Assembly: GCA_030949725.1 (NCBI GenBank)
Contig: JAUZSE010000003.1
Coordinates: 19,822 to 83,821 of the forward strand
Direction of reading: 5' to 3'
Source of the DNA: Sulfurovum sp.
GTDB lineage: Bacteria > Campylobacterota > Campylobacteria > Campylobacterales > Sulfurovaceae
DNA length: 64,000 nucleotides
Below, one piece after another: positions 6,546 through 60,132 of the stretch (positions are counted from its first letter, which is position 1; every line of letters begins with the position of its first letter). Made by a program: the position numbers and the translations under genes. Under the pieces are notes generated by a model that was not told the origin of the DNA, did not search any database, and saw only the letters and a program-made list of their open reading frames with translations.

Positions 6546-6549
6546 ATAT

Positions 6550-24234: not shown

Positions 24235-25206
24235 CTACATTGTCCCATTTTCATACATCGCACGCATTTTTTCTTTCTCTTTGTCTCTTTTAAGTTTTAT
24301 AGCTTCTTTTTCTCTAAAGCCACTTACTGAGAAACCAAGCCACATCAAGATAGGTGATGCCACAAAGATAGAAGAATATGTACCCACTACGATACCCACA
24401 AGTAGTGTAAATGCAAAGCCATGTATAATCTCACCACCGAAGATGAAAAGTGTTAACACCACAAAGAATGTGGTTAAAGATGTCAATGTTGTACGTGAAA
24501 GTGTACGTGTTACAGACTCATCAATGATCGCTGAGAGATCTGGATTTTTAATGGTTCTTATCCCCTCACGTATACGGTCAAATACAATAATCGTATCGTT
24601 CAGAGAGTACCCAAGTATGGTAAGTAAAGCTGCCAATATATCAAGGTTTACTTCCACTGAAAAAAGAACAATCATCCCCATCGCAATGGTGATATCGTGG
24701 ATAAGTGCCAACACAGAAGCAACAGCAAAACGCCACTCAAATCTAAAAGACACATAAAGTAAAATACCTATGATCGCGATAAGCATCGCATCAAACCCTT
24801 TGGTACGTAACTCTGAACCTACTTTTGCGCCTATCATATCTACACGTCTTATTTCGAGTGTACCGGTGTCTTTCAGTAATACACTTACTTTTGCACCTAC
24901 ATCTTCACCTAATACACCTGAAGACATTTTAGTACGTATCACTACTTCTTCTTGTGATCCAAAGAAAGTTACGGAAGCACCTTTATACGTTTTATCAGTA
25001 TTGAGTGCATCCCTAATCTTTTCGATAGGTGCTTCACCTGCATATTTGACTTGTATCAGTGTACCACCCGCAAAATCAACACCAAGGTTAAAACCTTTGG
25101 TGAGTATGAGTCCCACAGACAAAAGTAGTACCACAATAGAAAGCAATCCAAAACGTTTACTTTTAGCCATTAACGAGAGTGGTTTTTTATATTTAAAAAC
25201 TTCCAT
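24235..25206 (-). CDS. secF: Protein translocase subunit SecF
   Basis: SecF with SecD uses the proton motive force to pull proteins out of the Sec channel. The 323-residue protein has the N-terminal membrane helix, the first periplasmic domain starting FNLGVDFAGGTLIQV, and five further helices with YSLNDTIIVFDRIRE and TSLTTFFVVL, the standard SecF motifs. Its first 124 codons belong to a 1847-bp segment that is present twice. It overlaps the upstream chimeric gene by one base (TAATG). It is the last gene of the yajC-secD-secF run. Confidence 0.93.
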   Translation of the reverse strand: MEVFKYKKPLSLMAKSKRFGLLSIVVLLLSVGLILTKGFNLGVDFAGGTLIQVKYAGEAPIEKIRDALNTDKTYKGASVTFFGSQEEVVIRTKMSSGVLGEDVGAKVSVLLKDTGTLEIRRVDMIGAKVGSELRTKGFDAMLIAIIGILLYVSFRFEWRFAVASVLALIHDITIAMGMIVLFSVEVNLDILAALLTILGYSLNDTIIVFDRIREGIRTIKNPDLSAIIDESVTRTLSRTTLTSLTTFFVVLTLFIFGGEIIHGFAFTLLVGIVVGTYSSIFVASPILMWLGFSVSGFREKEAIKLKRDKEKEKMRAMYENGTM

Positions 25207-26681
25207 TACTTCGTCTCCTCTTGTTTAATACCAAACCAAAAGTTTAGTTTCTTTTTATCTATCTTAGGCAGTATCCACTGGTAAATACCATGCGTTCCGA
25301 CTATAGCCGTAAGCATAGAAGCCGCAATACCGATACCCATAGTAATCGCAAACCCTTTAATAGCTCCCGTCCCATATACCACAAGCACAATAGCTGCGAT
25401 AAGTGTGGTCACATTTGCATCAAAAATAGCCGTAAAGGCATTGTTGTATCCATCTTCTATAGACTTTCCTATAGACTTTCCTTGATGCAATAATTCACGT
25501 ATACGCTCATTGATAATAACATTGGCATCGACTGCCATACCCACGGTTAGTACGATACCTGCCATACCAGGAAGCGTCAAGGTAGCACCTACCAATGACA
25601 TAATTGCCAAAATAAGGAAAAGGTTTCCTATGAGTGCCACATTGGCAATTACTCCTGCCATCCCATAGTAAATCACCATGAAAATAACAACCAAAAGGAA
25701 ACCAAGTGCCAAAGCAAGTGAACTAGCTTTTATACTGTCTGCCCCAAGGCTAGGACCTATGAAACGCTCAGACTCTATAATCACAGGAGCGAGTAAAGCA
25801 CCTGAACGTAAAGCTATAGCCAAATCTTGTGCTTCTCCAAAGGTGAAGTTCCCTGAAATTTGAACATGCCCACCACCAATACGCTCATTAATGTTTGGTG
25901 CAGAGTAAACCAAGTTGTCTAAAACAACAGCCATACGTTTACCTACATATTTTCCTGTAAAGTCACCAAATATCTTTGCACCTTGTCCATTGAGTGCAAA
26001 GTTTATTACGGGCTGATTATTTTCATCAAAACCTACTTTAGCATCGGTAAGCATAGAACCATCTAGCACAGGAATAGCACGAACCAAATACTTTTCAGGG
26101 GTTTTCACATCTGTAAGTATCACATCCCCAAAACTTTTAGCTTCATTTGCACTCATCGTATTGACTCTTGCGATACGGTCTTCATCTACAGCCATAAGTT
26201 GCAAATGTGCCGCACGTTCAATGAGTTTTTTGAGGCGTTCAATATCCGCTCTGTTTTTGATACCTGGTACTTCTACCAAGATTTTATCTGTACCTTGTTT
26301 TGCCACAGTTGGTTCTGCAAGTCCAAACTCATTGAGTCTGTTACGTATGGTATCTACTGCCTGCCCGATGGCATTTTGTTTGGTACGTATTTGTTCTTCT
26401 TCTGTCATTTCAAGAGAAAAGTTCAAAGACTTTTGACTAAGCACTGTACCTTCTATCTCTTTTTTCAAAAGAGCGATTGCTTTAGTCACATCATCCGCAT
26501 CTAAAAGTTCAAAAGTAATCGTACCATCTTCATTCATACGAAGATCATCAAAAATAATTTCTTCGTCATCAAACAAATACTTTACCGTAGCAGCCATAGA
26601 TTTGATGCGTGATTCAATAGCAACCTCACTTTTGATCCCAAGAAGCATATGCAATCCACCTTGAAGATCAAGCCCCAAAGT
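24835..26681. repeat. secDF tandem duplication, copy A (1847 bp)
   Basis: This copy runs from within secF codon 124 through the SecD part of the chimera. It matches 26682-28528 base for base over most of its length at an exact offset of 1847. Differences cluster between about 25560 and 25930 (for example CTATAATCACAGGAGC against CTATGATGACAGGGGC). The rest is identical, which suggests recent duplication plus patchy conversion, or mixed haplotypes. Confidence 0.9.
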
Positions 26682-27053
26682 CATATCTACACGTCTTATT
26701 TCGAGTGTACCGGTGTCTTTCAGTAATACACTTACTTTTGCACCTACATCTTCACCTAATACACCTGAAGACATTTTAGTACGTATCACTACTTCTTCTT
26801 GTGATCCAAAGAAAGTTACGGAAGCACCTTTATACGTTTTATCAGTATTGAGTGCATCCCTAATCTTTTCGATAGGTGCTTCACCTGCATATTTGACTTG
26901 TATCAGTGTACCACCCGCAAAATCAACACCAAGGTTAAAACCTTTGGTGAGTATGAGTCCCACAGACAAAAGTAGTACCACAATAGAAAGCAATCCAAAA
27001 CGTTTACTTTTAGCCATTAACGAGAGTGGTTTTTTATATTTAAAAACTTCCAT
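25206..27053 (-). CDS. Chimeric SecF(N)-SecD fusion from tandem duplication
   Basis: This 615-residue protein is residues 1-124 of SecF (ending TLEIRRVDM) fused in frame to SecD from residue 37 (TLGLDLQGG) to its end. The join is at 26681/26682, exactly where a 1847-bp tandem duplication meets. SecF helix 1 thus replaces SecD helix 1, with the same topology, so the product could still insert. The SecD part differs from the full copy by scattered silent changes and one Leu/Met. It may be a functional second SecD, a dead by-product, or two strain haplotypes concatenated by the assembler. Confidence 0.85.
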   Translation of the reverse strand: MEVFKYKKPLSLMAKSKRFGLLSIVVLLLSVGLILTKGFNLGVDFAGGTLIQVKYAGEAPIEKIRDALNTDKTYKGASVTFFGSQEEVVIRTKMSSGVLGEDVGAKVSVLLKDTGTLEIRRVDMTLGLDLQGGLHMLLGIKSEVAIESRIKSMAATVKYLFDDEEIIFDDLRMNEDGTITFELLDADDVTKAIALLKKEIEGTVLSQKSLNFSLEMTEEEQIRTKQNAIGQAVDTIRNRLNEFGLAEPTVAKQGTDKILVEVPGIKNRADIERLKKLIERAAHLQLMAVDEDRIARVNTMSANEAKSFGDVILTDVKTPEKYLVRAIPVLDGSMLTDAKVGFDENNQPVINFALNGQGAKIFGDFTGKYVGKRMAVVLDNLVYSAPNINERIGGGHVQISGNFTFGEAQDLAIALRSGALLAPVIIESERFIGPSLGADSIKASSLALALGFLLVVIFMVIYYGMAGVIANVALIGNLFLILAIMSLVGATLTLPGMAGIVLTVGMAVDANVIINERIRELLHQGKSIGKSIEDGYNNAFTAIFDANVTTLIAAIVLVVYGTGAIKGFAITMGIGIAASMLTAIVGTHGIYQWILPKIDKKKLNFWFGIKQEETK

Positions 27054-28528
27054 TACTTCGTCTCCTCTTGTTTAATACCAAACCAAAAGTTTAGTTTCTT
27101 TTTATCTATCTTAGGCAGTATCCACTGGTAAATACCATGCGTTCCGACTATAGCCGTAAGCATAGAAGCCGCAATACCGATACCCATAGTAATCGCAAAC
27201 CCTTTAATAGCTCCCGTCCCATATACCACAAGCACAATAGCTGCGATAAGTGTGGTCACATTTGCATCAAAAATAGCCGTAAAGGCATTGTTGTATCCAT
27301 CTTCTATAGACTTTCCTATAGACTTTCCTTGATGCAATAATTCACGTATACGCTCATTGATAATAACATTGGCATCGACTGCCATACCCACGGTTAGTAC
27401 GATACCTGCCATACCAGGAAGTGTCAAGGTAGCACCTACCAATGACATAATCGCCAAAATAAGGAAAAGGTTTCCTATGAGTGCCACATTGGCAATTACT
27501 CCTGCCATCCCATAGTAAATCACCATGAAAATAACAACCAAAAGGAAGCCAAGTGCTAAAGCAAGTGAACTAGCTTTTATACTGTCTGCCCCAAGGCTAG
27601 GACCTATGAAACGCTCAGACTCTATGATGACAGGGGCCAAAAGGGCACCTGAACGTAAAGCTATAGCTAAATCTTGTGCTTCTCCAAAAGTAAAGTTTCC
27701 TGAGATTTGAACATGTCCACCACCGATACGCTCATTAATGTTTGGTGCAGAGTAAACCATATTGTCTAAAACAACCGCCATACGTTTACCTACATATTTC
27801 CCTGTAAAGTCACCAAATATCTTTGCACCTTGTCCATTGAGTGCAAAGTTTATTACGGGCTGATTATTTTCATCAAAACCTACTTTAGCATCGGTAAGCA
27901 TAGAACCATCTAGCACAGGAATAGCACGAACCAAATACTTTTCAGGGGTTTTCACATCTGTAAGTATCACATCCCCAAAACTTTTAGCTTCATTTGCACT
28001 CATCGTATTGACTCTTGCGATACGGTCTTCATCTACAGCCATAAGTTGCAAATGTGCCGCACGTTCAATGAGTTTTTTGAGGCGTTCAATATCCGCTCTG
28101 TTTTTGATACCTGGTACTTCTACCAAGATTTTATCTGTACCTTGTTTTGCCACAGTTGGTTCTGCAAGTCCAAACTCATTGAGTCTGTTACGTATGGTAT
28201 CTACTGCCTGCCCGATGGCATTTTGTTTGGTACGTATTTGTTCTTCTTCTGTCATTTCAAGAGAAAAGTTCAAAGACTTTTGACTAAGCACTGTACCTTC
28301 TATCTCTTTTTTCAAAAGAGCGATTGCTTTAGTCACATCATCCGCATCTAAAAGTTCAAAAGTAATCGTACCATCTTCATTCATACGAAGATCATCAAAA
28401 ATAATTTCTTCGTCATCAAACAAATACTTTACCGTAGCAGCCATAGATTTGATGCGTGATTCAATAGCAACCTCACTTTTGATCCCAAGAAGCATATGCA
28501 ATCCACCTTGAAGATCAAGCCCCAAAGT
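26682..28528. repeat. secDF tandem duplication, copy B (1847 bp)
   Basis: Second copy of the unit, from the SecF N-terminal part of the chimera through secD to its codon 37. The novel joint is at 26681/26682, where secD CCCAAAGT meets secF CATATCTAC. Only one base (T) is shared by both parents at the joint, so homologous recombination did not create it. Confidence 0.9.
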
Positions 28529-28636
28529 GATCTTTTTACCACTTTCACTTTGCGTAAGAGAAGGAATTGAAAAAACAATTCCAAAAATCAATGCAAAAGC
28601 GAAAAGAATAACCCTATAATTAAGCGTTTTCACCAA
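27053..28636 (-). CDS. secD: Protein translocase subunit SecD
   Basis: Full-length SecD of 527 residues. The N-terminal helix (VILFAFALIFGIVFSIP) is followed by the P1 domain starting ITLGLDLQGGLHMLLG. FIGPSLGADSI, AGIVLTVGMAVDANVIINERIRE and the last membrane helices are classic SecD segments. Its start overlaps the end of yajC (28620-28636). The following gene is the SecF-SecD chimera rather than secF itself, because the segment from codon 37 of this gene through codon 124 of secF is repeated. Confidence 0.94.
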   Translation of the reverse strand: MVKTLNYRVILFAFALIFGIVFSIPSLTQSESGKKITLGLDLQGGLHMLLGIKSEVAIESRIKSMAATVKYLFDDEEIIFDDLRMNEDGTITFELLDADDVTKAIALLKKEIEGTVLSQKSLNFSLEMTEEEQIRTKQNAIGQAVDTIRNRLNEFGLAEPTVAKQGTDKILVEVPGIKNRADIERLKKLIERAAHLQLMAVDEDRIARVNTMSANEAKSFGDVILTDVKTPEKYLVRAIPVLDGSMLTDAKVGFDENNQPVINFALNGQGAKIFGDFTGKYVGKRMAVVLDNMVYSAPNINERIGGGHVQISGNFTFGEAQDLAIALRSGALLAPVIIESERFIGPSLGADSIKASSLALALGFLLVVIFMVIYYGMAGVIANVALIGNLFLILAIMSLVGATLTLPGMAGIVLTVGMAVDANVIINERIRELLHQGKSIGKSIEDGYNNAFTAIFDANVTTLIAAIVLVVYGTGAIKGFAITMGIGIAASMLTAIVGTHGIYQWILPKIDKKKLNFWFGIKQEETK

Positions 28637-28892
28637 GTTCTACCTTTTTTGCAACATATCCTCTATCTAATTTAACAATCGTGTCATCATTTAGTTTGAT
28701 TTTGATAAAATCTTCTTCAGTTTTAACAATAGAAGCCATCAATCCGCCAGTTGTGATGATATTATCACCTTTAGACAAACTTTCGAGCATTGCTTTATGA
28801 GCTTTTTGATGCTGTTGTTGTGGTCTGATGATCAAAAAATAAAAAATCGCGAATAAGATAATAAGGGGTAAAAATGAGCCAAGTTGTTCCAT
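28620..28892 (-). CDS. yajC: Sec translocase accessory subunit YajC
   Basis: A 90-residue single-pass protein: LPLIILFAIFYFLIIRPQQQ is the membrane helix and the diagnostic IRPQ motif, followed by GDNIITTGGLMASIVK. YajC joins SecDF at the Sec channel. It overlaps secD downstream by 17 bases. Its start also overlaps, head to head, the proposed start of lnt on the plus strand, so the two divergent promoters must lie within each other's coding region or leaderless sequence. Confidence 0.93.
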   Translation of the reverse strand: MEQLGSFLPLIILFAIFYFLIIRPQQQHQKAHKAMLESLSKGDNIITTGGLMASIVKTEEDFIKIKLNDDTIVKLDRGYVAKKVELGENA

Positions 28893-30192
28893 GGAAAGCC
28901 TTTGTGTATAAAATTAGCCATTATTTTAGCACTTTAGAGATAACAAGAGGCTTTTTTATTGCTGTTTTAGGCTCTGCCTTTATTTACTTCAACCACTGGG
29001 GCTTTTCATATCTTTTCCTAAATACATTTTTAGGACTTCTATTTCTCTATTTACTCTTACAGTCGAACACTAAAACTTGGTTCATTACTGGAGCTTTTAC
29101 AGGTCTCTTCTGGTTTTGGTGGATTGCACTGAGCCTCATCCATTATGAGATGCTCTGGGCTGTGCCTATAGAATTATTTATCATCATGTTTAGTTATGGT
29201 GTTCTTTTTGCAGGTATCTCTATGGTTGGGCTATAAACTTACCACACTATTCACTTTTCACTTTTCACTTTTCACTTTAATGCTAAAAGCCCTAGGGCTT
29301 TTGAGCTTAAGCTATATTCATCCTTTCGGTTTTGACTGGCTAAAACCCGAACTCATTTTTGTTGAAAGCTATCTAGGTATAGAGAAATGGCAGTTTGCTA
29401 TCGTGCTGTTTTCCATTATTATGACGCTTTGGAAAAAACAGTTTTTTTATCTTCTACTGGTTGTTTTTGCATACCAAACTACCCCTCTAACAGAAAGTAA
29501 AATACCAAAAAAACATCGCCATTATCACAACCCATACTACAGTTCAAGACAAATGGAACGAAACACTGCACCCCAAACAATTTAAAGATGTTTTCAAACA
29601 TATTGATCAAGCCATAAAAGATAAAAAGACACTTATTATCTTTCCTGAATCCGTTTTCCCTATCTTCCTCAACCGCTCCCAAGAAGTTCTTGACAAGCTA
29701 GGTCAAAAAGCCAAACAGATCTCCATCGTTACAGGTGGACTCTACTGGGATGGAAAAACACCCCGAAATTCAACCTATATTTTTACAGAAGGCAAAATCA
29801 CTGTAGCAAACAAAGTCTTACTTGTCCCTTTTGGAGAAAGTAACCCCCTACCCGATTTTTTGAGTGACTGGGTCAATGAGGTGTTTTATGATGGTGCAGT
29901 AGACTACAAGGCAAGCTCGGATGTTGTAGACTATGACATAGATGGTATCACTTACAGAAATGCCATCTGTTTTGAAGCCACTTCAGAAAAACTCTATAAA
30001 AAAGGAAAAGATGGAATGCACCCACAAAATATGATAATCCTCAGCAACAACGGCTGGTTCACCCCATCCATAGAACCAACTTTACAGAAGTTACTTTTAC
30101 AGTACTACAGTAAAAAGTATGGAACGACTATGTATCATTCTGTGAATATGTCGGAGGCTTATGTGCTAAAAGATGGAGGAGTTATCAAATAG
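28874..30192 (+). CDS. lnt: Apolipoprotein N-acyltransferase (frameshifted)
   Basis: Lnt adds the third acyl chain to lipoproteins. Three frames together give about 437 residues. Piece one has several membrane helices and GLFWFWWIALSL, the Lnt GxxFFxxxxxW region. A shift near 29226 links ISMVG to YKLTTLFTFH. Piece two runs to about 29500, where a second shift enters the nitrilase domain. That domain has IFPESVFP (catalytic Glu), NKVLLVPFGE (Lys) and RNAICFEATSE (catalytic Cys). The start may be ATG 28874 (AAGGGG upstream) or GTG 28904. Whether the gene is truly broken or the sequence has indels is open. Confidence 0.8.
29251..29278. repeat. Four exact copies of the heptamer TCACTTT inside lnt
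   Basis: TCACTTT is repeated four times without interruption. A 7-base unit changes the reading frame each time a copy is gained or lost, so this is the kind of tract that supports phase variation. It lies just downstream of one of the two lnt frame breaks. The tract itself is read through in the second lnt frame as LFTFHFSLFTL. Confidence 0.85.
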
Positions 30193-33606: not shown

Positions 33607-34881
33607 GGACTAAAACATAAATAAAACCAAATTACTAGTACTTTTTAGGAATAGCAACATAATTCCAAAGTGGTAAATGTATATCAAAGATAATTTTCAT
33701 ATTCTCTTTAAAGCCCTCTGCATATTTTCTTTTTGTATGAAATACCTTATCAAGAATAGAACTAAAAACTTTCAATCCTGTAGTCGTTTTAGTTTGTGCA
33801 ATAAGGGTATTTACTAACTCTACACTTGTAAAAATGACTCCTTGTAAAGCTCTTGTGATATGAGGGAATAGGCGATGTTCTATAGGATTATACTTTGATG
33901 TATAAGGAGGATAATGAGCAATACGAATTTCAATTTGTAATTCCTCTGATAACTTCTGTAAATCTTCTTTAAAAATATAGTGACGAGAGCTATTACTGCC
34001 CCCACCATCGCACAGTAGTAGCAGTTTATCATGTCCTTGATATTCAATATATCCATAATTTAACCACCAATTTTTGATAGATTCACAAGCAAATTCACTG
34101 GTATCAGCACTTGTCCCTATGGTAATATAACCAATATTTAGGTTTATATCATACAGCCCATAGGGACAATTTTTCCCTCTGCGTAAGAAGGAAAATCATG
34201 GTCTTTAACTTTAATTATCTCTTGAGTATACAGTTTACCTTCTCGGTATAAATTTCCTAAAAACTCTTTTTTACATCCATACTCAAAACAGGATTCCCCT
34301 CTTTCTTATATTCTTCTTTTAGTTTTTCAATATTTTTAAATTGCTCATCTCTATTTGCAACATCTACTTTTCCTGAAAGTGTTTTAAATGCTTGTCGCTT
34401 ACGAAAATGATGTTTTTTAAGAGTTGTTTCACTATATCCACATCAACTACAAAACCTTTCTCTGACAATCTAGTTTGTAGCTCTTTCCGTGATAAATTTG
34501 TCCACTTTATCGTCTCATCCATCGGTGAACCTGCTGTACTCTCTGCGATAACCTCTAGGAATGCTTCGTCTAAGCCTTCTCTTGTGAGCAATATAGACTT
34601 TCTTCCTCCTCCCTCTTCTCTTTGTCTTTTATTATCTTTATCTAATTCTGTTCTTAACTCTTTTTGTCCTCTTGACACACCACTATAGTCACATTCAAAG
34701 ATTTCGCATATATAGCTTATCCCTCCATGACTTAATTTGGTTGCTTCTATTCCTGCGTAGCGTCTTCTGTCTTTCTCTGATAAACTTTTATATAGATTTA
34801 GCATTTGCTCTTCTATTTCTTTTGGGTACTTTTTCATAAATAGTATTTTAGCTTATTTTGGGTTTGTTTATCTTGTTGTCC
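33607..34881 (-). mobile_element. ISAzo13-like insertion sequence, copy 1
   Basis: An element of 1275 bp. Its ends GGACTAAAACATAAATAAAACC and the reverse complement of the right end, GGACAACAAGATAAACAAACCC, are imperfect terminal inverted repeats. It is flanked by a 3-bp direct repeat TAA (33604-33606 and 34882-34884). It carries one transposase gene on the minus strand. It interrupts the receiver-like gene. It is nearly identical to copy 2 (36360-37636) apart from a 2-base homopolymer difference and a single base change, so both insertions are recent. Confidence 0.92.
33635..34837 (-). CDS. ISAzo13-family transposase (frame breaks)
   Basis: The N-terminal 157 residues are open (MKKYPKEIEEQMLNLY, KLSHGGISYICEIFECD, GSPMDETIKWTNLSRKELQTRL), matching the Rhodopirellula-type DDE transposases of the ISAzo13 family. 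The rest lies in other frames: HHFRKRQAFKTLSGKVD, GTSADTSEFACESIKNWWL, LLLLCDGGGSNSSRHYIF (catalytic Asp) and YPPYTSKYNPIEHRLF (catalytic Glu), ending AIPKKY. Shifts occur at TTAAAAAAC near 34410, at a T6 run near 34267 and at an A5 run near 34172. The first is a canonical A_AAA_AAC slippery site and might be programmed. The others look like indels. Confidence 0.85.
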
Positions 34882-36359: not shown

Positions 36360-37636
36360 GGACTAAAACATAAATAAAACCAAATTACTAGTACTTTTTA
36401 GGAATAGCAACATAATTCCAAAGTGGTAAATGTATATCAAAGATAATTTTCATATTCTCTTTAAAGCCCTCTGCATATTTTCTTTTTGTATGAAATACCT
36501 TATCAAGAATAGAACTAAAAACTTTCAATCCTGTAGTCGTTTTAGTTTGTGCAATAAGGGTATTTACTAACTCTACACTTGTGAAAATGACTCCTTGTAA
36601 AGCTCTTGTGATATGAGGGAATAGGCGATGTTCTATAGGATTATACTTTGATGTATAAGGAGGATAATGAGCAATACGAATTTCAATTTGTAATTCCTCT
36701 GATAACTTCTGTAAATCTTCTTTAAAAATATAGTGACGAGAGCTATTACTGCCCCCACCATCGCACAGTAGTAGCAGTTTATCATGTCCTTGATATTCAA
36801 TATATCCATAATTTAACCACCAATTTTTGATAGATTCACAAGCAAATTCACTGGTATCAGCACTTGTCCCTATGGTAATATAACCAATATTTAGGTTTAT
36901 ATCATACAGCCCATAGGGACAATTTTTCCCTCTGCGTAAGAAGGAAAATCATGGTCTTTAACTTTAATTATCTCTTGAGTATACAGTTTACCTTCTCGGT
37001 ATAAATTTCCTAAAAACTCTTTTTTTTACATCCATACTCAAAACAGGATTCCCCTCTTTCTTATATTCTTCTTTTAGTTTTTCAATATTTTTAAATTGCT
37101 CATCTCTATTTGCAACATCTACTTTTCCTGAAAGTGTTTTAAATGCTTGTCGCTTACGAAAATGATGTTTTTTAAGAGTTGTTTCACTATATCCACATCA
37201 ACTACAAAACCTTTCTCTGACAATCTAGTTTGTAGCTCTTTCCGTGATAAATTTGTCCACTTTATCGTCTCATCCATCGGTGAACCTGCTGTACTCTCTG
37301 CGATAACCTCTAGGAATGCTTCGTCTAAGCCTTCTCTTGTGAGCAATATAGACTTTCTTCCTCCTCCCTCTTCTCTTTGTCTTTTATTATCTTTATCTAA
37401 TTCTGTTCTTAACTCTTTTTGTCCTCTTGACACACCACTATAGTCACATTCAAAGATTTCGCATATATAGCTTATCCCTCCATGACTTAATTTGGTTGCT
37501 TCTATTCCTGCGTAGCGTCTTCTGTCTTTCTCTGATAAACTTTTATATAGATTTAGCATTTGCTCTTCTATTTCTTTTGGGTACTTTTTCATAAATAGTA
37601 TTTTAGCTTATTTTGGGTTTGTTTATCTTGTTGTCC
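36360..37636 (-). mobile_element. ISAzo13-like insertion sequence, copy 2
   Basis: A 1277-bp copy of the same element, same orientation, with target duplication TTA (36357-36359; the matching TTA at 37967-37969 lies beyond two extra tandem copies of the right end). It disrupts the ankyrin gene. Compared with copy 1 it has 8 rather than 6 T at about 37020-37027 and one A/G change near 36582. Confidence 0.92.
36388..37592 (-). CDS. ISAzo13-family transposase, second copy (frame breaks)
   Basis: Nearly identical to the first transposase, with the same open N-terminal ORF (37119-37592) and the same shifts at TTAAAAAAC and at the A5 run. At the homopolymer that reads T6 in copy 1 it has T8; the conserved frame (MDVKKEFLGNLYREG) needs seven. 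This is the clearest internal sign that homopolymer lengths in this window are not reliable. Confidence 0.85.
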
Positions 37637-49406: not shown

Positions 49407-50240
49407 ATGAACCGATTATTTGTCGTCAATAAACCCATTTTTAGAACATCTAATGGCTATATGAATTATATAAAACATAAATACAACAGCAAAAAAGTAG
49501 GTTTTTCTGGTACCTTAGATCCTTTTGCTACTGGCTGTCTCATAGTGGCTACAGGACAATACACAAAACTATTCCAGTACCTCAACAAAACACCAAAATC
49601 TTACAAGGCTACCCTATGGTTGGGTGCGAACTCTCCAGGTCTTGATATAGAGAAGGTGGACAGTATTGAAGAAGTCGAAGCTTTTGATGAAAAGTACATC
49701 AAAGAAGTCTTAGCCTCACTGCAAGGTGAACTCACCTATTACCCTCCTAAATTTTGTGCCAAGAAGATCAATGGAAAACGTGCCTATGAACTTGCACGAG
49801 AAGGAAAAGAAGTGCTACTCAAAACCATTACTTCAACCATCTATGATATTCATTTGCTAAACTACTCTCACCCCTTTGTACACTTTGAAGTCAAGGTAAG
49901 TGAAGGTACATACATTAGAAGTCTTGCTGCTCTAGTGGCGGACAAACTAGGTGTAGATGGCACACTTTCAAGCCTGCACCGTATCAATGAGGGGCAGTTT
50001 TATTATGACAAGGAAAAAGCACTTAATCCATTTATTCATTTAGCATTATCATCCAATACCTATACAGGAGATGATTCATTTATAGAATTAGGAAAAAAAT
50101 TGGATATTGCGTATTTTGCTATACAAGAGGATGGGGTTTATCTTATAGAGACCGCTAACTTTTTTTCTATCATTCAGATAATGAGTAAAGCAATTACATA
50201 CAGATTTAACCGTATAGCTAAATTTAGTGAAAATGGTTGA
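49407..50240 (+). CDS. truB: tRNA pseudouridine-55 synthase
   Basis: A 277-residue TruB. RLFVVNKPIFRTSN is the opening, KKVGFSGTLDPFATGCLIVATGQYTKL includes the catalytic Asp in GTLDPxAxG, and KINGKRAYELAREG and VSEGTYIRSLAALVADKLG are further family motifs. It lacks a PUA-type ending. In Campylobacter and Helicobacter, csrA and ispE follow near truB; here a signalling module separates truB from ispE. Confidence 0.93.
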   Translation: MNRLFVVNKPIFRTSNGYMNYIKHKYNSKKVGFSGTLDPFATGCLIVATGQYTKLFQYLNKTPKSYKATLWLGANSPGLDIEKVDSIEEVEAFDEKYIKEVLASLQGELTYYPPKFCAKKINGKRAYELAREGKEVLLKTITSTIYDIHLLNYSHPFVHFEVKVSEGTYIRSLAALVADKLGVDGTLSSLHRINEGQFYYDKEKALNPFIHLALSSNTYTGDDSFIELGKKLDIAYFAIQEDGVYLIETANFFSIIQIMSKAITYRFNRIAKFSENG

Positions 50241-50260
50241 GATATTAAGTGTATAAAGCG

Positions 50261-50295
50261 TATAATACCTAAACTAAAATGAATAATTTTAGTTT
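50261..50295 (+). promoter_or_regulatory. -10 element followed by a hairpin upstream of LC7-like gene
   Basis: TATAAT (50261-50266) stands 52 bases before the ATG of the LC7-like gene. Directly after it AAACTAAAAT-GAATA-ATTTTAGTTT forms a perfect 10-bp stem with a 5-base loop (50271-50295). It lies where transcription would begin, so it may be an operator or a 5'-end stabiliser. It could also end truB transcription, though there is no T-run. Confidence 0.5.
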
Positions 50296-50317: not shown

Positions 50318-50680
50318 ATGAATATGAACAAAATAGAAGATGGTTTAAAAGATATACTTAGCTTAAATGGCGCTTTGGGTGCATCGTTGGTTGATTGGGG
50401 AAGTGGTATGGTACTAGGAATGGATACGAATGGTAATTTTCCTATTGAACTTGCATCAGCTGGTAATTCAGAGGTAGTAAAAGCCAAGATGACTACCATG
50501 AAAAGTCTTGAATTAGAGGGGAATATTAAGGATATAATGATTAGCTTAAGTGACCAACTTCATATTATTCATATTTTAGAGGATAATCCAGAATTGTTTC
50601 TCTATGTAGCCCTTGATTCTTCTAAATCAAATTTGGCATTGGCTAGACATAAACTCTCAACAGTAGCAAAAGAAAAATAA
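50318..50680 (+). CDS. Roadblock/LC7-like small protein 1
   Basis: I start it at ATG 50318 (CCAAGGACACAAAT upstream), giving 120 residues. The fold pattern GALGASLVDWGSGMVLGMDTNGN, IELASAGNSEVVKAK, ISLSDQLHIIHIL and LFLYVALDSSKSNLALARHKL matches roadblock/LC7 dimer proteins, which in bacteria regulate small GTPases or kinases. It is homologous to the two LC7-like proteins at 53336-54241, but on the other strand and at the other end of the kinase gene. Role inferred: accessory to the kinase. Confidence 0.65.
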   Translation: MNMNKIEDGLKDILSLNGALGASLVDWGSGMVLGMDTNGNFPIELASAGNSEVVKAKMTTMKSLELEGNIKDIMISLSDQLHIIHILEDNPELFLYVALDSSKSNLALARHKLSTVAKEK

Positions 50681-50699
50681 AATTTTTGCTGTCTATCTA

Positions 50700-50730
50700 G
50701 AGTTTCTAAACTTCATACATTTAGAAACTC
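50700..50730. terminator. Bidirectional terminator between LC7-like gene and hybrid kinase
   Basis: GAGTTTCTAAA and TTTAGAAACTC make a perfect 11-bp stem with a 9-base loop, with TTTTCG after it on the plus strand and AAAAATTTT-type sequence on the other side. It overlaps the stop codon of the kinase. Confidence 0.7.
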
Positions 50731-53322
50731 TTTTCGCACACTTTATGAAATGTAATAACTGCATCATTTAATTGGCTTCGCTGTGTCTGATTAATAGCAA
50801 CAATAGGTTCCAAAGACTGAGATAAAAAACAAGCTCCAATTTCTTTAGCTTCCTCTTTTATCTGGTAAGAAAGTTGTGTCGCCTCTTCCAACTGTAATAC
50901 TTCTACTTTTTTTGTTATGACTGCAGAAGAATCTCTAAATTTATCACAAAATAGTTTAAGAATAATACGATATTCTTCTTCATCTTTCTTGAGCCTTACT
51001 AAAGTATCGTCTAGTGTTAGAATTTTTGATATTTCTTTTTTCTCTTTAGATGATATATCTTTATTTTTTATAAAAACTTCTGCAAAAGATAAAAAATGCT
51101 CAAATGCTTTATTGTAGTTTTTTATTAGGACAAGAAATATTTTTTGATGTTTATAGATGTTTTTACTGATTTTAGAGAGAGCATTAAATACATTCTTCTT
51201 TTCTACTAACTGAACGTCATCTTGAAGTAATTTAGATATCTTTATAACCTCAGAATAATCTCCTATACCTATAAGTGTCTGTATCTCTTCTGCTCCCTCT
51301 TTTAATCTTAAAACAAAACTTTTTTAGGTTTGACATATTTTAAAATATATTGATAAAAAAGGTTTACATCTATAGGTTTAGTAAGATAATTGTCCATCCC
51401 CGCCTTCATCGCTTCTTCTTTATCTTCTTTTCTAGCACTTCCCGAGAAAGCTATAATCGGAATATGACTATATATAGGGTTTTCTTTCAAGTGTTCAACT
51501 GTCTCATATCCACCCATAAGGGGCATTTTAATATCCATAAATATCAAATCTATAGGTTCAATATTTTCTATCATATCTAAGACCTCTTGACCATTATTTG
51601 CAATGGTGATTTTAATACCTGTATCTTCTAGTAGTGCTAGTAAAATCGATTGATTAATTTCATTGTCTTCTGCTATCAAGATATGTGAACCACTCAATAT
51701 ATTTAGAGATGTTTTACTCATAAAAGTATTTGATTCTATTTGGGAGATACGTTTATCTCCATACAATTCTTGCATAGTATTAAAAATTGATTGGTGATTG
51801 AATGGCTTTATGATTTTGGCATCGATATCAATATATTCTAAAATATTATCATCTAAATGATCTTCATGATGATGCATCAAAACTATCTTTGCCTTACATT
51901 TATCTTTATCTTTAGTAAGCTTATTTTTAGATGCCTCAACTAGTGCTTTATCTAAAAATAATATATTAAAATCATCTTTTGATATATGTTCAAATAACTC
52001 TTCCATGTTTGAAACGTTCAAAACATCATAACCAAAATTGTGCAACATTTTTTCTAGTGCTTTTCTACTAGAATTATTCTCATCAAAGATTAAAATTTTG
52101 TGATTATTTATCTTTTTCAATGATAGAGGATAAGTATTTTCTTTTAGCACTTCTATCTCTATAGTAAAGATAAAATCACTTCCTTCTCCATACACACTCT
52201 CTACTCGTATATTTCCACCCATAAGTTCAACCAGTTGTTTTGCTATGGTAAGTCCCAGACCTGTACCACCAAATTGACGACTAGTTGAGATATCTGCTTG
52301 TGAAAAAGTCTGAAAAAGATTGGCTATTTGATCATCTTTCAGACCAATACCTGTATCTGAAATCTTAAACTCCAATAGTTTCTTTCCAGAAGGAGGAAGA
52401 AGAAGTTTAGCAGATAAAACAACTTCACCTTGATCTGTAAATTTTACAGCATTGCTCATAAGATTTATCAGTATTTGTGTTAAACGTAGAGGATCTCCAT
52501 ATATACGCGTTGGCATAGTGCTATCTAGGTCAAAAATTAAATCTATTTTTTTTTTCATAGGCTTTAAAATCAATCATCGTAGAAATATTTTCCAATATGC
52601 CATTCATATCAAATTCAATTTTCTCAATGGAGAACTTGCCTGCTTCCATTTTAGAAAAATCCAATATATCATTGACAATATTTAATATTAAATTAGCTGA
52701 AGTTTCTATCTTGGAGACATAGTCACGATGCTTGGAATCTAAATCATAATCAAGTAAAATATGACTCAGTCCAATCACTGCATTCATAGGTGTGCGAATT
52801 TCATGTGATATATTGGCAAAAAAAAGATTCTTAGTCTCCCTCGCATATTCTATTGACTGTATTCTTTTATCTAATTCTACAACTCTTTCTTCTGACATTA
52901 TAAAGTTTTGTAACTTCATTTTATCTTCATATATCTCTTTACTCGCTTCAAAACAAATACTATAGAGTTCATCATGTTTTAGAGGTCTGTGAAGACAATA
53001 ATATATTTTTTTTTGTCATTAAGGAAAGGAGTTGATCTTTCGCATATTTTGTACGAATGATGATAATTATCTGCTTTGGATTAATACTGCGTATCTCTTC
53101 TAAAATATCCATGCAGCTATCCCATTTTTGTGCATCTATCATGATGACATCTGGATATACATTTAAAATATCATGGCTGTAAACATATTCTACAAGATCA
53201 TTAAGGATAGTCACATCTTGGAAAAGAAGTTTCAATCTACTATAATCTTCTGCATAAATACTGGTATCGTTTTCAACATAATACAAGTTTAACAATCCAC
53301 TGTAGGCTAAAATTTTTTCCAT
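50721..53322 (-). CDS. Hybrid histidine kinase REC-HK-REC-REC-Hpt-like (three frameshifts)
   Basis: About 865 residues over four frames. Piece one (52972-53322) is a REC-like domain (YPDVIMIDAQKWDS). A shift in a long A-run near 53010 leads to KIYYCLHRPLKHDELYSI and then HisKA (FFANISHEIRTPMNAVIGLS). A shift at T8 near 52552 leads to the HATPase (ILINLMSNAVKFTD, DTGIGL, GGTGLGL). A pseudo-receiver and a true receiver (LIFMDIKMPLMGG, FSGSA, TKPID) follow. A shift near 51302 leads to a helical tail, SYQIKEEAKEIGACFLSQSLEPI, which looks like an Hpt domain lacking its His. No membrane segment is seen, so it is cytosolic. Confidence 0.8.
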
Positions 53323-53335
53323 AAATCTACCTTTA

Positions 53336-53785
53336 TTATTTAATCTCTCTGTATTTAATACTCAACTCTTCAGCTACGAGTTTCACTTTTGTTCGCATAA
53401 GTGCTACATTTGATTTATGTGAATCCAGCACAATATACAAACATAGTTCAGGATGCTTTGGTAAAACATGTATAAAATGGATTTGTGTGGGTAAGGTCAT
53501 TAAAATATCCTCAAGAGAACTATTAGTATCTATATCTTTTAGCATCTTTTTGTTGGCTTTTAGAACATTTATAGCTCCTTTTGAGGCTACATCTATATCA
53601 AATTCACCCTCTATTTTTGTCCCCAAAATAATATTATTTTCCCAATCTATCAGGGAAACTGCCAATACATCATTTAAATCCAAAAGCTGAATTAGTGTAT
53701 TTTCTATATCATTATGTTCTATAAAAGTATTTCCAAAAATATTCTTTACTATTTTTTTACAAAAAAGATTCATTTTATCTAGCAT
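53336..53785 (-). CDS. Roadblock/LC7-like small protein 2
   Basis: A 149-residue paralogue of the plus-strand LC7-like protein: NDVLAVSLIDWENNIILGTKIEGEFDIDVASKGAINVLKANKKML, LPTQIHFIHVLPKHPELCLYIVLDSHKSNVALMRTKV. It has an N-terminal extension of about 25 residues. It sits 13 bases upstream of the kinase and 9 bases downstream of LC7-like protein 3, so all three are one operon. Confidence 0.65.
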   Translation of the reverse strand: MLDKMNLFCKKIVKNIFGNTFIEHNDIENTLIQLLDLNDVLAVSLIDWENNIILGTKIEGEFDIDVASKGAINVLKANKKMLKDIDTNSSLEDILMTLPTQIHFIHVLPKHPELCLYIVLDSHKSNVALMRTKVKLVAEELSIKYREIK

Positions 53786-53794
53786 TCTTAATCC

Positions 53795-54241
53795 TTATAA
53801 TTCAATATTCATATCTATTGATTCAAGTTGGCTGTGAATCAATGCTAGATTTGTTTTTTGAGCATCCGCAACAAGATATAAGAAAAAATCTCTACTTTTT
53901 GTTACGCTAAGATGATAAATGATCAAGATATTATCCGAGCAGGTAAAAGTTATATTTTTAAGATTCTTTTTCTTATCTATACTTTCTATCATTAGTATAG
54001 TCTTTCTTGTAATTTCATTATTGGAAGCTGATATTAAAAGCATATTCTTATTTTCATCACTCATCGACCCCAAAATCATTCCACTCTTTAGGTCTATTAA
54101 TACACTTTCAATAACACCCGTTAGTTTAAAAGAATTCTGCAAGAGGCATGCTATTTTTTCTCTATCTATCTTGGTTTGAATGATAAATTTTTCCAATAAC
54201 CTATCCTGAAAAGATTGAAAAGAACTGCTCTCTTTTGGCAT
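53795..54241 (-). CDS. Roadblock/LC7-like small protein 3
   Basis: A 148-residue protein, the first gene of the kinase operon. It has the same layout (GVIESVLIDLKSGMILGSMSDENK, SASNNEITRKTILMIES, FTCSDNILIIYHLSVTKSRDFFLYLVADAQKTNLALIHSQL) but is the most diverged of the three. Its N-terminus is a helical segment of about 35 residues. Together with the second LC7-like protein it could form a heterodimer controlling the kinase. Confidence 0.6.
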   Translation of the reverse strand: MPKESSSFQSFQDRLLEKFIIQTKIDREKIACLLQNSFKLTGVIESVLIDLKSGMILGSMSDENKNMLLISASNNEITRKTILMIESIDKKKNLKNITFTCSDNILIIYHLSVTKSRDFFLYLVADAQKTNLALIHSQLESIDMNIEL

Positions 54242-54385: not shown

Positions 54386-55309
54386 ATGGGTGGTTTTGAA
54401 GGTGGTGATGAGGGTGGATTTTGGGATGATGATACGCTTCCTAAATCGATGAAAAGAGGAAAAGTAGATATATCTAATAGAGAAAAACCAAGTATAGAAA
54501 AAAATGATTTAGGCTACAGTATAAAAGCCCATGCAAAAGTAAATATCTTTTTGAAAATTACAGGACACAAAGAAGGTTACCATACCCTACTCTCACGCGT
54601 TATCAGAGTAGAAGAACTCTATGACACCCTCACCTTTGTACCCTGCGAGTGTAATACCTTTACCATAGAAGGCTGTGATGGTATACCCTTAGAATCAAAC
54701 ACTATCTACAAAGCATACAAGGCACTCAATGATCATACTGGTGACCTTGACATCTTAAACTTCTTTTACGCACATAAAGTGCTTGTCACCAAACGTATAC
54801 CAAGTCAAGCTGGTTTAGGTGGTGGTAGCTCTGATGCTGCTGCGTTTATGCTACTTGTCAAAGAGGTGTGTAATTTGATGATAGGTACAGAAGAATTGGC
54901 TAGAGTAGGCAGTACCATAGGTGCTGATTTACCTTTTTTTATCTATAACTATCCTTCTGCAAATGTCTCTGGTTTTGGAGATACGGTTGAATCCTTTGAT
55001 GAAGTGCCATTGACAGTAGAGCTTTATACACCAAACATAGGCTGTGATACTAGCCTAGTTTATCAAACATTTAAAAAAGAGTTACTCAAAAACATCCGTG
55101 TATCTTCTTTTTTTGGATGGGACAGTATAGATTCTAAAACACTTTTAGAAATGACCGCAGACCCCCTAAAACTCAACGACCTCTACGCCGCAGCATGCAT
55201 AGCCTATCCAGACTTAAAGACCCTAGCACCCAAAGGATGGTTTTTTTCTGGAAGTGGCAGTACATTCTTTAGATTAAAAGAAAGTACTAAAGAGATAGAT
55301 AGAGGTTGA
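54386..55309 (+). CDS. ispE: 4-diphosphocytidyl-2-C-methylerythritol kinase, with N-terminal extension
   Basis: IspE is the GHMP kinase of the MEP isoprenoid pathway. The catalytic body starts at about residue 43 (YSIKAHAKVNIFLKI) and contains the glycine-rich GHMP loop SQAGLGGGSSDAAAF near 150, GADLPFF and the C-terminal GSGSTFF. Before it lie about 42 extra residues, Gly/Asp-rich then basic (MGGFEGGDEGGFWDDD), not expected in the family. The ribosome-binding site favours this long start. The gene overlaps the convergent SPOR-like gene by 23 bases. Confidence 0.88.
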   Translation: MGGFEGGDEGGFWDDDTLPKSMKRGKVDISNREKPSIEKNDLGYSIKAHAKVNIFLKITGHKEGYHTLLSRVIRVEELYDTLTFVPCECNTFTIEGCDGIPLESNTIYKAYKALNDHTGDLDILNFFYAHKVLVTKRIPSQAGLGGGSSDAAAFMLLVKEVCNLMIGTEELARVGSTIGADLPFFIYNYPSANVSGFGDTVESFDEVPLTVELYTPNIGCDTSLVYQTFKKELLKNIRVSSFFGWDSIDSKTLLEMTADPLKLNDLYAAACIAYPDLKTLAPKGWFFSGSGSTFFRLKESTKEIDRG

Positions 55310-56192
55310 TTGATTGGACAAGTTCATCTAATTTTGTTTTATAAAGAGTGGTATAACTATGCAAAAGTTCAGGTTTTTTATACATTATGTGTTGCTGCAC
55401 TTCATTGATAACCGTATACATCTTTTTGGCACCTATAGTACTAGTAAGTCCTCTCATCTCTAAACACAATGCTTTAATCTGTCCATAACGCTGTTCTTTA
55501 ACTAAATTTTCAAATATAGAGCTACTTTGGGCATAAGTATCTAAAAATTCTTGTAACATCTGTTTATAAAAAATGATATTCCCATTGAGGTTTCCAATAC
55601 CAACCTCTACATTCAGTCCCTCAAAAACCAAAGGGGCAGGATCAAGTTTATTTGAAATATTATGAATATTCTCACCCATTATTGAGAGTGCTTCATTCTG
55701 CCTAAGTACAAGATTATCATGTTTTAATTTCATTTTCTGATACTCTAACTTCATTCGTTTCATCTGTATAGACGATAGAAACATAAAAAATATACTCAAA
55801 AAAGCCAAGGAGAACATGCCCACCCATAAAGAGTCATAGATTTTTTTATCAATAGTTTGAATAACAGGTTCAACTTTCAATTCAAAACTTTTCTTTTCTA
55901 GCATAAAGGCATTGGGAAAATATTTTTTTGCCTTAAAATACGCCAATGCAAGAAAGTCATTATTTTCAAATGGTCCCACTCTCAAGATATAAGATTGATT
56001 TACTTTTTTGATAGTAGCCTTTACTTTAGAACCATCTGTCAAAATTTGAACCGTTTTCTCTTCATAGTATTTCATTTTTTCGACGATCTTTTCTTTATCA
56101 TCCCCACTATCTAAGACAATAAAATTATCTCCTGCCATTGAAACCTGCACCACTAAAGATACCCACAGTAAAAATCTATATATTTCAAACAT
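55287..56192 (-). CDS. Membrane protein with SPOR-like and degenerate Hpt-like domains
   Basis: A 301-residue protein. A signal peptide (IYRFLLWVSLVVQVSMAGD) precedes a periplasmic stretch with a SPOR-like pattern (VKATIKKVNQSYILRVGPFENNDFLALAYFKAKKYFPNAFML). A membrane helix follows at about 125-145 (SLWVGMFSLAFLSIFFMFL), then a coiled coil, and a cytosolic helical domain. In that domain FYKQMLQEFLDTY and ICLEMRGLTSTIGAKKMY-like sequence match Hpt domains, with Glu or Met where the phospho-His should be. It may scaffold signalling at the cell wall. Family name unknown. Confidence 0.6.
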   Translation of the reverse strand: MFEIYRFLLWVSLVVQVSMAGDNFIVLDSGDDKEKIVEKMKYYEEKTVQILTDGSKVKATIKKVNQSYILRVGPFENNDFLALAYFKAKKYFPNAFMLEKKSFELKVEPVIQTIDKKIYDSLWVGMFSLAFLSIFFMFLSSIQMKRMKLEYQKMKLKHDNLVLRQNEALSIMGENIHNISNKLDPAPLVFEGLNVEVGIGNLNGNIIFYKQMLQEFLDTYAQSSSIFENLVKEQRYGQIKALCLEMRGLTSTIGAKKMYTVINEVQQHIMYKKPELLHSYTTLYKTKLDELVQSINLYLSL

Positions 56193-58282: not shown

Positions 58283-59179
58283 ATGTGCCAAGTATCAAAA
58301 TACATCAACCCATTTACAGACTTTGGATTCAAAAAGATATTTGGAGATCCTAATAGTACCGAATTACTCAAAAGTCTTCTTAACGATATTTTGAAGTTTG
58401 AGGGAAAAGATAAGATCAAAAAGATTACCTTTAAAAATGGTGAACTACTTCCTGAAGCTCCTGAAGAAAGAAAAGCCATTATAGACATGATGTGTGAAGA
58501 TGAAAAAGGCAATCAATTTATAGTAGAACTACAAAAAGTATCTCAAGAACATTTTCAAAGTAGAGCCTTATATTATACTTCCTTTCCCATACAACAACAA
58601 GGCATTAAAGGAGGATGGAACTTTGAGCTTACCCCTGTGTATTTTGTAGGACTGCTTAATTTTGAGATAGATAGATTTAAAGATAGTCCAGAATACTTAC
58701 ACCACGGTATGATAATAGATAAATATACCAAAAAAACAATGTACGATAAACTCAATATGGTTTACCTAGAGATACCAAAACTCAAAAAGACCAAAGAAGA
58801 GCTATCTAGTCACTTAGAGTGGTGGATGTATGTTTTTCAAAATCTTAATCTCATGACAGACATACCCAAAGAACTTCAAAACGATGTCATCAAAAATGCC
58901 TTTAGTAAAGCAGAGTTTGCTTCTATGCCTAAAAACCAACAAGAGAATTATCATAAGAATTTAAAGACGTATAGGGATTTGGTCAATAGTTTTGATTTTG
59001 CTGTGAAGAGTGGGCATGAGGATGGGATGGTACAAGGTATGAAGGCAGGTGCAAATGAAGAGAGGACAAAAATAGCCAAAAATCTTTTGGATGCCAATAT
59101 GGACTTAGATTTTATTTCCAAAACTACAGGTTTGAGTTTGAAAGAGATAGCGAGTCTACAACGTAAACCTATGCTATAA
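58283..59179 (+). CDS. Rpn-family PD-(D/E)XK nuclease, copy 1
   Basis: A 298-residue member of the Rpn family (recombination-promoting nuclease, formerly PDDEXK transposase). It starts KYINPFTDFGFKKIFGDPNSTELLKSLLNDIL. The nuclease motif is ERKAIIDMMCEDEKGNQFIVELQK (D...E-x-Q). The tail after GHEDGM is VQGMKAGANEERTKIAKNLLDANMDLDFISKTTGLSLKEI. Apart from the tail and a few bases it equals copy 2. Tails of this family vary and may set oligomerisation. Its stop (ATGCTATAATC) overlaps the promoter of copy 2. Confidence 0.88.
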   Translation: MCQVSKYINPFTDFGFKKIFGDPNSTELLKSLLNDILKFEGKDKIKKITFKNGELLPEAPEERKAIIDMMCEDEKGNQFIVELQKVSQEHFQSRALYYTSFPIQQQGIKGGWNFELTPVYFVGLLNFEIDRFKDSPEYLHHGMIIDKYTKKTMYDKLNMVYLEIPKLKKTKEELSSHLEWWMYVFQNLNLMTDIPKELQNDVIKNAFSKAEFASMPKNQQENYHKNLKTYRDLVNSFDFAVKSGHEDGMVQGMKAGANEERTKIAKNLLDANMDLDFISKTTGLSLKEIASLQRKPML

Positions 59180-59217: not shown

Positions 59218-60132
59218 ATGTGCCAAGTATCAAAATACATCAACCCATTTACAGACTTTGGATTCAAAAAGATATTTGGAGATCCTAATAGTACCGAGTT
59301 ACTCAAAAGTCTTCTTAACGATATTTTGAAGTTTGAGGGAAAAGATAAGATCAAAAAGATTACCTTTAAAAATGGTGAACTACTTCCTGAAGCTCCTGAA
59401 GAAAGAAAAGCCATTATAGACATGATGTGTGAAGATGAAAAAGGCAATCAATTTATAGTAGAACTACAAAAAGTATCTCAAGAACATTTTCAAAGTAGAG
59501 CCTTATATTATACTTCTTTCCCTATCCAACAACAAGGCATTAAAGGAGGATGGAACTTTGAGCTTACCCCTGTGTATTTTGTAGGACTGCTTAATTTTGA
59601 GATAGATAGATTTAAAGATAGTCCAGAATACTTACACCACGGTATGATAATAGATAAATATACCAAAAAAACAATGTACGATAAACTCAATATGGTTTAC
59701 CTAGAGATACCAAAACTCAAAAAGACCAAAGAAGAGCTATCTAGTCACTTAGAGTGGTGGATGTATGTTTTTCAAAATCTTAATCTCATGACAGACATAC
59801 CCAAAGAACTTCAAAACGATGTCATCAAAAATGCCTTTAGTAAAGCAGAGTTTGCCTCTATGCCTAAAAATCAACAAGAGAATTATCATAAGAATTTAAA
59901 GACGTATAGGGATTTGGTCAATAGTTTTGATTTTGCTGTGAAGAGTGGGCATGAGGATGGGATGAAAGTTGGGATGAAAGTTGGGATGCGAGATGGAAGG
60001 ATACAGGGTAAACGAGAGGGAATCAAAGAAGGGACAATAAAAATTGCCAAAAACCTTTTAGATGTTCTGGATAATGAGACTATATCATTAAAAACAGGAT
60101 TATCCGTAGATGAGATTGAATCGTTTAGGTGA
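59218..60132 (+). CDS. Rpn-family PD-(D/E)XK nuclease, copy 2
   Basis: A 304-residue second copy with an identical first 240 residues, including the same D-E-x-Q nuclease motif. The tail differs: KVGMKVGMRDGRIQGKREGIKEGTIKIAKNLLDVLDNETISLKTGLSVDEI. It includes two direct copies of AAAGTTGGGATG. The offset between the copies is 935 bases from 58235 to 59170 onward. Tandem Rpn genes with diverged ends suggest tail exchange. Confidence 0.88.
   Translation: MCQVSKYINPFTDFGFKKIFGDPNSTELLKSLLNDILKFEGKDKIKKITFKNGELLPEAPEERKAIIDMMCEDEKGNQFIVELQKVSQEHFQSRALYYTSFPIQQQGIKGGWNFELTPVYFVGLLNFEIDRFKDSPEYLHHGMIIDKYTKKTMYDKLNMVYLEIPKLKKTKEELSSHLEWWMYVFQNLNLMTDIPKELQNDVIKNAFSKAEFASMPKNQQENYHKNLKTYRDLVNSFDFAVKSGHEDGMKVGMKVGMRDGRIQGKREGIKEGTIKIAKNLLDVLDNETISLKTGLSVDEIESFR

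Follow-up and report, generated by a model that had tools for sequence, protein, structure and literature searches.

Roadblock proteins are regarded, across life, as companions to GTPases of the Ras, Rag or MglA type. What, then, are three of them doing beside a hybrid histidine kinase at a locus with no GTPase? The question arises from a 64-kb stretch of Sulfurovum sp. (contig JAUZSE010000003.1, positions 19,822 to 83,821; hereafter the window, in whose own numbering positions are given). The stretch belongs to G000, a metagenome-assembled genome of Campylobacterota (25 contigs with 1.77 Mb in total, 69.6% complete), and in it four genes form a 4-kb insert flanked by truB (end 50240) and a gene read as ispE (start 54386). 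The answer we lean towards is that the locus encodes a module of roadblocks and phosphorelay without a GTPase, whose roadblock dimers would serve REC-bearing signalling proteins as an adaptor or an allosteric input. The four genes are the following.

53795-54241, minus strand: LC7-A, 148 amino acids, first gene of the A-B-kinase operon (from the open reading frame list and homology)
53336-53785, minus strand: LC7-B, 149 amino acids, 9 nt after A
50721-53322, minus strand: hybrid kinase gene, 13 nt after B, in four frame segments in the assembly
50318-50680, plus strand: LC7-C, 120 amino acids, convergent with the kinase gene, with an alternative upstream ATG at 50279

Gaps that short make the co-directional A, B and kinase genes operon-like, and 40 nt separate the kinase stop codon from that of C. 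This bears out an earlier interpretation made from the letters of the DNA (the sequence-only reading), which had three LC7-like genes bracketing a kinase, the first two in an operon with it and the third closest to the second: the three small open reading frames lie where it placed them, all are mutually homologous, and LC7-C is 42% identical to B against 30% to A.

Roadblock fold and paralogue types

The AlphaFold2 model of LC7-C (12 homologues in the alignment) has a predicted local distance difference test score (pLDDT) of 92.2 and a predicted template modelling score (pTM) of 0.85, and its elements follow the roadblock order a-bb-a-bbb-a. Foldseek against the PDB placed Myxococcus xanthus MglB at the top (E=1.4e-7, TM-score about 0.8), with the S. 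avermitilis Roadblock/LC7 protein 3kye, T. thermophilus MglB and MglC (7ct3) as further matches and LAMTOR/Ragulator subunits and Asgard roadblocks lower down. The model covers LC7-C, and A and B are assigned by homology to it. Structure prediction settled the fold because searches for LC7 identity with Pfam, NCBIfam and PDB sequences gave nothing above cut-off; the Pfam model Robl_LC7, at its curated cut-off, matched neither A, B and C nor anything else in the G000 genome. Members are known to escape this model (PMC4316618), so its silence weakens membership of the sequence family and not membership of the fold. The sequence-only reading was thus right about the fold, and A, B and C are predicted to belong to roadblock/LC7 by fold, not by sequence.

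The three proteins represent different paralogue types. LC7-C groups with the C-types of other loci and is the slow-evolving 'core' roadblock, and LC7-B pairs with its counterpart L069_B in the tree (support 95/82). LC7-A is a fast-evolving paralogue with an N-terminal extension that carries an FxxRLLEKFIIQ motif, and it falls in a clade with L069_A, L070_A2, L071_A2 and L072_gr2 (support 100/99). That A-types are seen solely next to C-types (in the window and at L069, L070, L071 and L072) suggests A:C heterodimers.

A soluble hybrid kinase with a histidine-less C-terminus

The kinase has the layout REC (degenerate)-HisKA-HATPase-REC (degenerate)-REC (canonical), followed by a helical, Hpt-derived C-terminus of roughly 200 amino acids, here called a pseudo-Hpt. 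In the window its parts are as follows.

52638-52832, minus strand: HisKA (Pfam PF00512, E=1.9e-21), SHEIRTP motif intact
52157-52498, minus strand: HATPase_c (Pfam PF02518, E=2.6e-26)
51350-51682, minus strand: canonical REC with AEDN, MDIKMP and TKP (Pfam PF00072, E=3.9e-31)
50724-51308, minus strand: helical C-terminal pseudo-Hpt, with Tyr in the phospho-His column (LSYQIKEEAKEIGA)

Pfam finds HisKA, HATPase_c and REC in one protein, both over the window pieces and in the intact orthologue L030. Intact orthologues are 866 (L069) and 870 (L030) amino acids long; in them the N-terminal degenerate REC scores 1e-4 with Pfam, below cut-off, and the second degenerate REC 2e-7 and 2e-5. The REC-HK-REC-REC order of the sequence-only reading therefore stands as an order of domains, although two of its RECs are degenerate and the Hpt-derived end had gone unmentioned. 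The kinase is also cytosolic, as had been claimed: no kinase examined has a transmembrane-like segment, the top 19-residue hydropathy being below 1.5.

The phospho-accepting histidine is absent from the C-terminal Hpt of the kinase, which in this does not follow the relay of the BarA/ArcB type. Every LC7-linked pseudo-Hpt has Tyr, Leu, Lys, Asn or Glu in the phospho-His column; canonical Hpts from the same search retain AHxxKG. A pseudo-Hpt may be part of the kinase or be encoded separately next to a roadblock gene (L032/L047, L051, L052), and the histidine is missing in all of them.

Histidine-less Hpts were also observed elsewhere. A protein with one transmembrane segment, encoded at window positions 55287-56192 by the neighbour of the gene read as ispE, has a C-terminus that matches the pseudo-Hpt profile (KALCLEMRGLTSTIGA, no His), and it is a second histidine-less Hpt less than 5 kb from the kinase. 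A large Sulfurovaceae family of hybrid-type proteins of roughly 720 amino acids (L093, L094, L098, L099 and others) has a C-terminal Hpt in which MLCxDM[RK]GL replaces AHxxKG; with this family, pseudo-Hpts are widespread.

Conservation of the gene neighbourhood

The grouping that the sequence-only reading drew from one stretch of DNA proves to be conserved among these sulfur-oxidising bacteria. The exact block, A-B-kinase with C converging on it, recurs with an intact kinase on contig 77 of G520 (L069; Sulfurovaceae BB14), a member of another genus, where it is flanked by unrelated genes at a chromosomal site different from the truB/ispE context of the window. In the tree A, B and C are each orthologous one-to-one between the two loci, with identities of 47% for A, 54% for B, 76% for C and 43-70% for the kinase pieces; the ratio of non-synonymous to synonymous substitution rates (dN/dS) is 0.10-0.29 for the pieces with estimable dS, dS being saturated. 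Other loci have partial or modified forms of the block.

Kinase gene convergent with C (reduced form): G113 (L030) and G059 (L017)
GAF-REC gene, kinase gene and solo pseudo-Hpt gene, convergent with C: G272 (L052)
Kinase gene and solo pseudo-Hpt gene, convergent with C: G421 (L051); its contig begins with another GAF-REC match
Kinase gene and C: G514 (L073); a GAF match lies where the contig ends
C beside a kinase-less GAF-REC protein (six loci): G039, G054, G324, G390, G117 and G487; in G324 (L032) a solo pseudo-Hpt also converges on C

A REC-bearing partner, whether hybrid kinase or GAF-REC protein, adjoins the roadblock at 13 of the 15 Campylobacterota loci, a count from which a fragmentary second copy in G039 (L020) was excluded as a low-quality duplicate. 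With 23-27 REC matches per genome of about 2 Mb (three of the genomes), we estimate for about 2,000 genes that roughly 5% of loci would be expected to have a REC within the four nearest genes. Since the loci are related by descent, the comparison of 13/15 with roughly 5% is not a formal probability, and most of them lie in different chromosomal contexts; roadblock-REC adjacency is better than chance. A C-type roadblock is present at every locus of the family. Because six of the loci have a GAF-REC protein without a kinase domain, the element they share is the REC and not the kinase: the regular companion of C is a protein with a REC rather than the kinase core. The pseudo-Hpt, GAF and second-REC profiles are too unspecific to serve as tests of co-occurrence, since ordinary hybrid kinases turn up among their matches in large numbers.

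Members of the C-family are scarce and unevenly spread: they were found in 14 of 175 Sulfurovaceae genomes (5 of 11 genera) and in 6 of 397 sampled Campylobacterota genomes, one of these outside Sulfurovaceae. Two relatives with 34-37% identity come from Kitasatospora (L036, 8004-8378; L037, 8004-8375); they apparently stand alone, and they are closer to the C-family than to any Pfam model.

Ras-like GTPases and related systems

A search with PF00071 across the 15 LC7 genomes found stand-alone Ras-like frames (158-171 amino acids) in five: G113, G487, G059, G324 and G039. Seven others, 92-100% complete, have none (G054, G117, G272, G390, G421, G519, G520), and in 14 of the 15 genomes, G487 being the exception, no Ras-like GTPase lies near LC7. 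As the sequence-only reading had observed, there is no small GTPase near the genes in the window, nor a stand-alone one in the 69.6% complete G000 assembly. Its statement that bacterial roadblock proteins usually accompany MglA-type GTPases is somewhat too strong, given that a survey of 749 MglB homologues counted 390 small GTPases within four genes of one (PMC4316618) and that roadblock-REC links without an adjacent GTPase gene are known.

Such links include RomR-MglC, PATAN neighbours and NitrOD3 fusions, and sets of histidine kinase, roadblock and GTPase are known as well. The actinobacterial conservons (CvnA-D; AGPS) likewise have a histidine kinase gene adjoining a roadblock gene in a conserved operon, but they comprise the Ras-like GTPase CvnD, CvnC (a domain of unknown function), one roadblock and a membrane kinase without REC, whereas the window module has three roadblocks, a soluble REC-bearing hybrid kinase, a pseudo-Hpt and no GTPase. 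The gene lists of all loci and the GTPase search showed neither CvnC nor CvnD beside kinase and roadblock, CvnC not having been searched by profile. In the MglA-MglB-MglC-RomR system of M. xanthus, roadblock paralogues of the same fold form heteromers and work with a REC-domain protein; unlike here, the GTPase MglA is central, the genes of the REC partners are not adjacent and there is no hybrid kinase. PATAN-REC proteins near MglB homologues and NitrOD3, in which Thaumarchaeota join a REC to a roadblock-like domain, share the roadblock-REC link that does not require a GTPase, but they involve other REC proteins and taxa, as a fusion or a loose neighbourhood, and no block of a kinase plus three roadblocks. 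From hybrid kinases of the BarA/ArcB type, which have the same HisKA-HATPase-REC order and an Hpt-derived C-terminus, the window kinase differs in having no membrane sensor, extra degenerate RECs, an Hpt without its phospho-histidine, and roadblock genes attached. The module works like the conservons or the MglA/B system but is a member of neither. The literature searched holds no account of a GTPase-free module of a kinase and three roadblocks, an absence that is not proof.

Similar arrangements occur with other roadblocks. In a second, distant family (L074, L075) two roadblocks lie upstream of a 701-amino-acid HisKA-HATPase-REC kinase with GAF similarity, and in G024 and G227 genes that match Robl_LC7 at Pfam level head operons ending in a 645-amino-acid GAF-HK-REC kinase; G117 has a similar Robl_LC7 operon start, cut by the contig end, and in G185 a 521-amino-acid kinase is convergent nearby. 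The combination of roadblock and hybrid kinase without a GTPase thus recurs in at least two further Campylobacterota roadblock families. Conserved operons headed by Robl_LC7 and without a GTPase lie at L131 (2834-6778), L132 (2618-6377) and L130 (1-2269), where they contain a roadblock, small proteins, a 220-250-amino-acid protein and a GAF hybrid kinase.

Proposed working of the module

For binding, heterodimers, direction of control and output we infer the following. The locus would be a self-contained soluble module of a hybrid histidine kinase and three diverged roadblocks, with no GTPase, in which the C-type would be the core subunit and the A- and B-types accessory paralogues that probably heterodimerise with C or with each other. 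In M. xanthus the REC protein RomR uses its C-terminal helix to bind the roadblock MglC, with a KD of 2.6 nM (PMC12719032), and by analogy roadblock dimers may dock on a helical part of their REC partner, here the pseudo-Hpt or a linker by the last REC. Docked roadblocks could then set the activity or the cellular place of that partner, as an input or localisation device, and the usual position of a sensor domain would be held by the degenerate REC together with the roadblock complex. The idea of the sequence-only reading, that roadblock dimers control the kinase, is an inference of this kind. Phosphate would pass from HisKA to the canonical last REC; since the C-terminal Hpt has no histidine, it would relay no phosphate onward and is more likely a docking surface. 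Output may come through the phosphorylated REC, or through a separate Hpt or response regulator.

Several observations weigh against this account. At L070 and L071 there is just one A-type and one C-type gene, converging on each other, with no REC protein adjoining. The kinase family is also spread more widely than the roadblock and can do without it: close relatives of the kinase are encoded in G042 and G523, which yielded no roadblock of this kind. The model of the C-terminal domain is helical but of moderate confidence (pLDDT 75), and Foldseek found no PDB match for it. The phosphate route is deduced from residues. To these may be added the G487 GTPase, about 4 kb from the LC7/GAF-REC operon, and the breaks in the assembled kinase gene of the window, which may mean that it is a true pseudogene. 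A strict co-occurrence of kinase and roadblock was considered and rejected, given G042 and G523.

Alternative explanations

A rival that we consider rather unlikely makes the roadblocks downstream effectors: phosphorylated REC would recruit or release dimers that position another machine, as with RomR/MglC/MglB at the poles. The six loci that pair a roadblock with a kinase-less GAF-REC protein speak for it, as does the RomR-MglC precedent (PMC12719032), yet no output gene is conserved next to the loci, and A and B upstream of the kinase in one operon fit an input role equally, gene order giving no direction. Of the two, the input role is our preference. It is improbable, in our estimate, that the roadblocks are GAP or adaptor subunits of a Ras-like GTPase encoded elsewhere, with the kinase feeding that GTPase in a conservon- or Mgl-like manner. 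The nearest folds are indeed MglB and MglC, conservons do combine histidine kinase, roadblock and GTPase (PMC13343842), a stand-alone Ras-like GTPase is encoded in five of the 15 LC7 genomes, in G487 at 4 kb from LC7, and the genome of the window is only 70% complete. Against this stand the seven nearly complete LC7 genomes without one and the location of the GTPase on another contig in G113, G059, G324 and G039. The remaining GTPase, that of G487, lies within a complete Rup group 1 locus (L072, 8104-11751; coiled coil, OmpA protein, GTPase, GGDEF), a clade that according to PMC4316618 has no coupling to MglB homologues.

The other alternatives concern the kinase gene, which the sequence-only reading treated as one gene and which in fact shifts frame three times relative to its intact orthologues, as located by tblastn with these.

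53322-52972, 53015-52530, 52573-51308 and 51323-50721, minus strand: the four frame segments
53006-53014, minus strand: frame break 1, at an A9 run, the second longest A/T run in the window
52546-52555, minus strand: frame break 2, at an A10 run, the longest A/T run in the window
51320-51360, minus strand: frame break 3, where the canonical REC gives way to the C-terminal domain

The breaks are likely to be mainly assembly error, a pseudogene or a phase-variable gene being less likely, because intact orthologues exist and other parts of the window are damaged too. The conserved housekeeping genes mfd (3571-6740) and lnt (28874-30192) are frame-split at ordinary short runs, a sign of assembly indel errors, and a secD/secF segment is present twice at 24235-28636, with an open reading frame (25206-27053) that begins as SecF and continues as SecD, as a tandem misassembly or a genuine duplication would produce. 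That the kinase is a true pseudogene in a decaying locus, with the roadblocks as relics, would account for three breaks, two of them at the window's longest A/T runs, but seems quite improbable to us: two other genomes have intact orthologues, the damage to mfd, lnt and secD/secF points to the assembly, the kinase pieces keep a low dN/dS and all three roadblocks are intact. The coincidence of breaks 2 and 1 with the longest homopolymers also invites the idea of a phase-variable kinase switched on and off by slippage at A10 and A9; this is very improbable, as break 3 has no comparable run, the loci of the intact orthologues have no A/T run longer than 8, and other window genes are broken without long runs. 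Programmed frameshifting was rejected, the intact orthologues being single-frame and three breaks being required.

Other features of the locus and the window

Two further elements were noted around LC7-C.

50699-50731, no strand: perfect 13-bp hairpin (-15 kcal/mol, z -4.2) between the convergent ends
50237-50266, plus strand: promoter-like site TTGAGA-18-TATAAT (11/12) upstream of LC7-C

The hairpin is a candidate for the bidirectional terminator of the sequence-only reading, but it has no T run, and a terminator scan of the region found no terminator-like site with one. Promoter-like sites in the region are no more numerous than expected by chance.

Elsewhere in the window, two open reading frames of 157 amino acids with identical, transposase-like translations (34364-34837 and 37119-37592) flank a low-GC segment with ankyrin-like open reading frames, and a tandem pair of near-identical open reading frames (58283-59179 and 59218-60132), Rpn/PD-(D/E)XK-like by eye, differ only at the C-terminus.

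Implications

A wider proposal, possible but tentative, is that roadblocks of Campylobacterota have been rewired wholesale from GTPases to phosphorelays. Hetero-oligomers would stand in for the sensor domain in soluble hybrid kinases as well as in GAF-REC proteins, a histidine-less Hpt would serve as dock, and the block would move between genomes and would have arisen at least twice from different roadblock families. If the conserved, GTPase-free coupling to two-component signalling is true, it would show a role of the roadblock dimer itself, as a scaffold or allosteric input. It would also provide a small soluble system for testing how receiver-domain proteins are recognised by heteromers of roadblocks, which is equally a question for RomR-MglC and the conservons.

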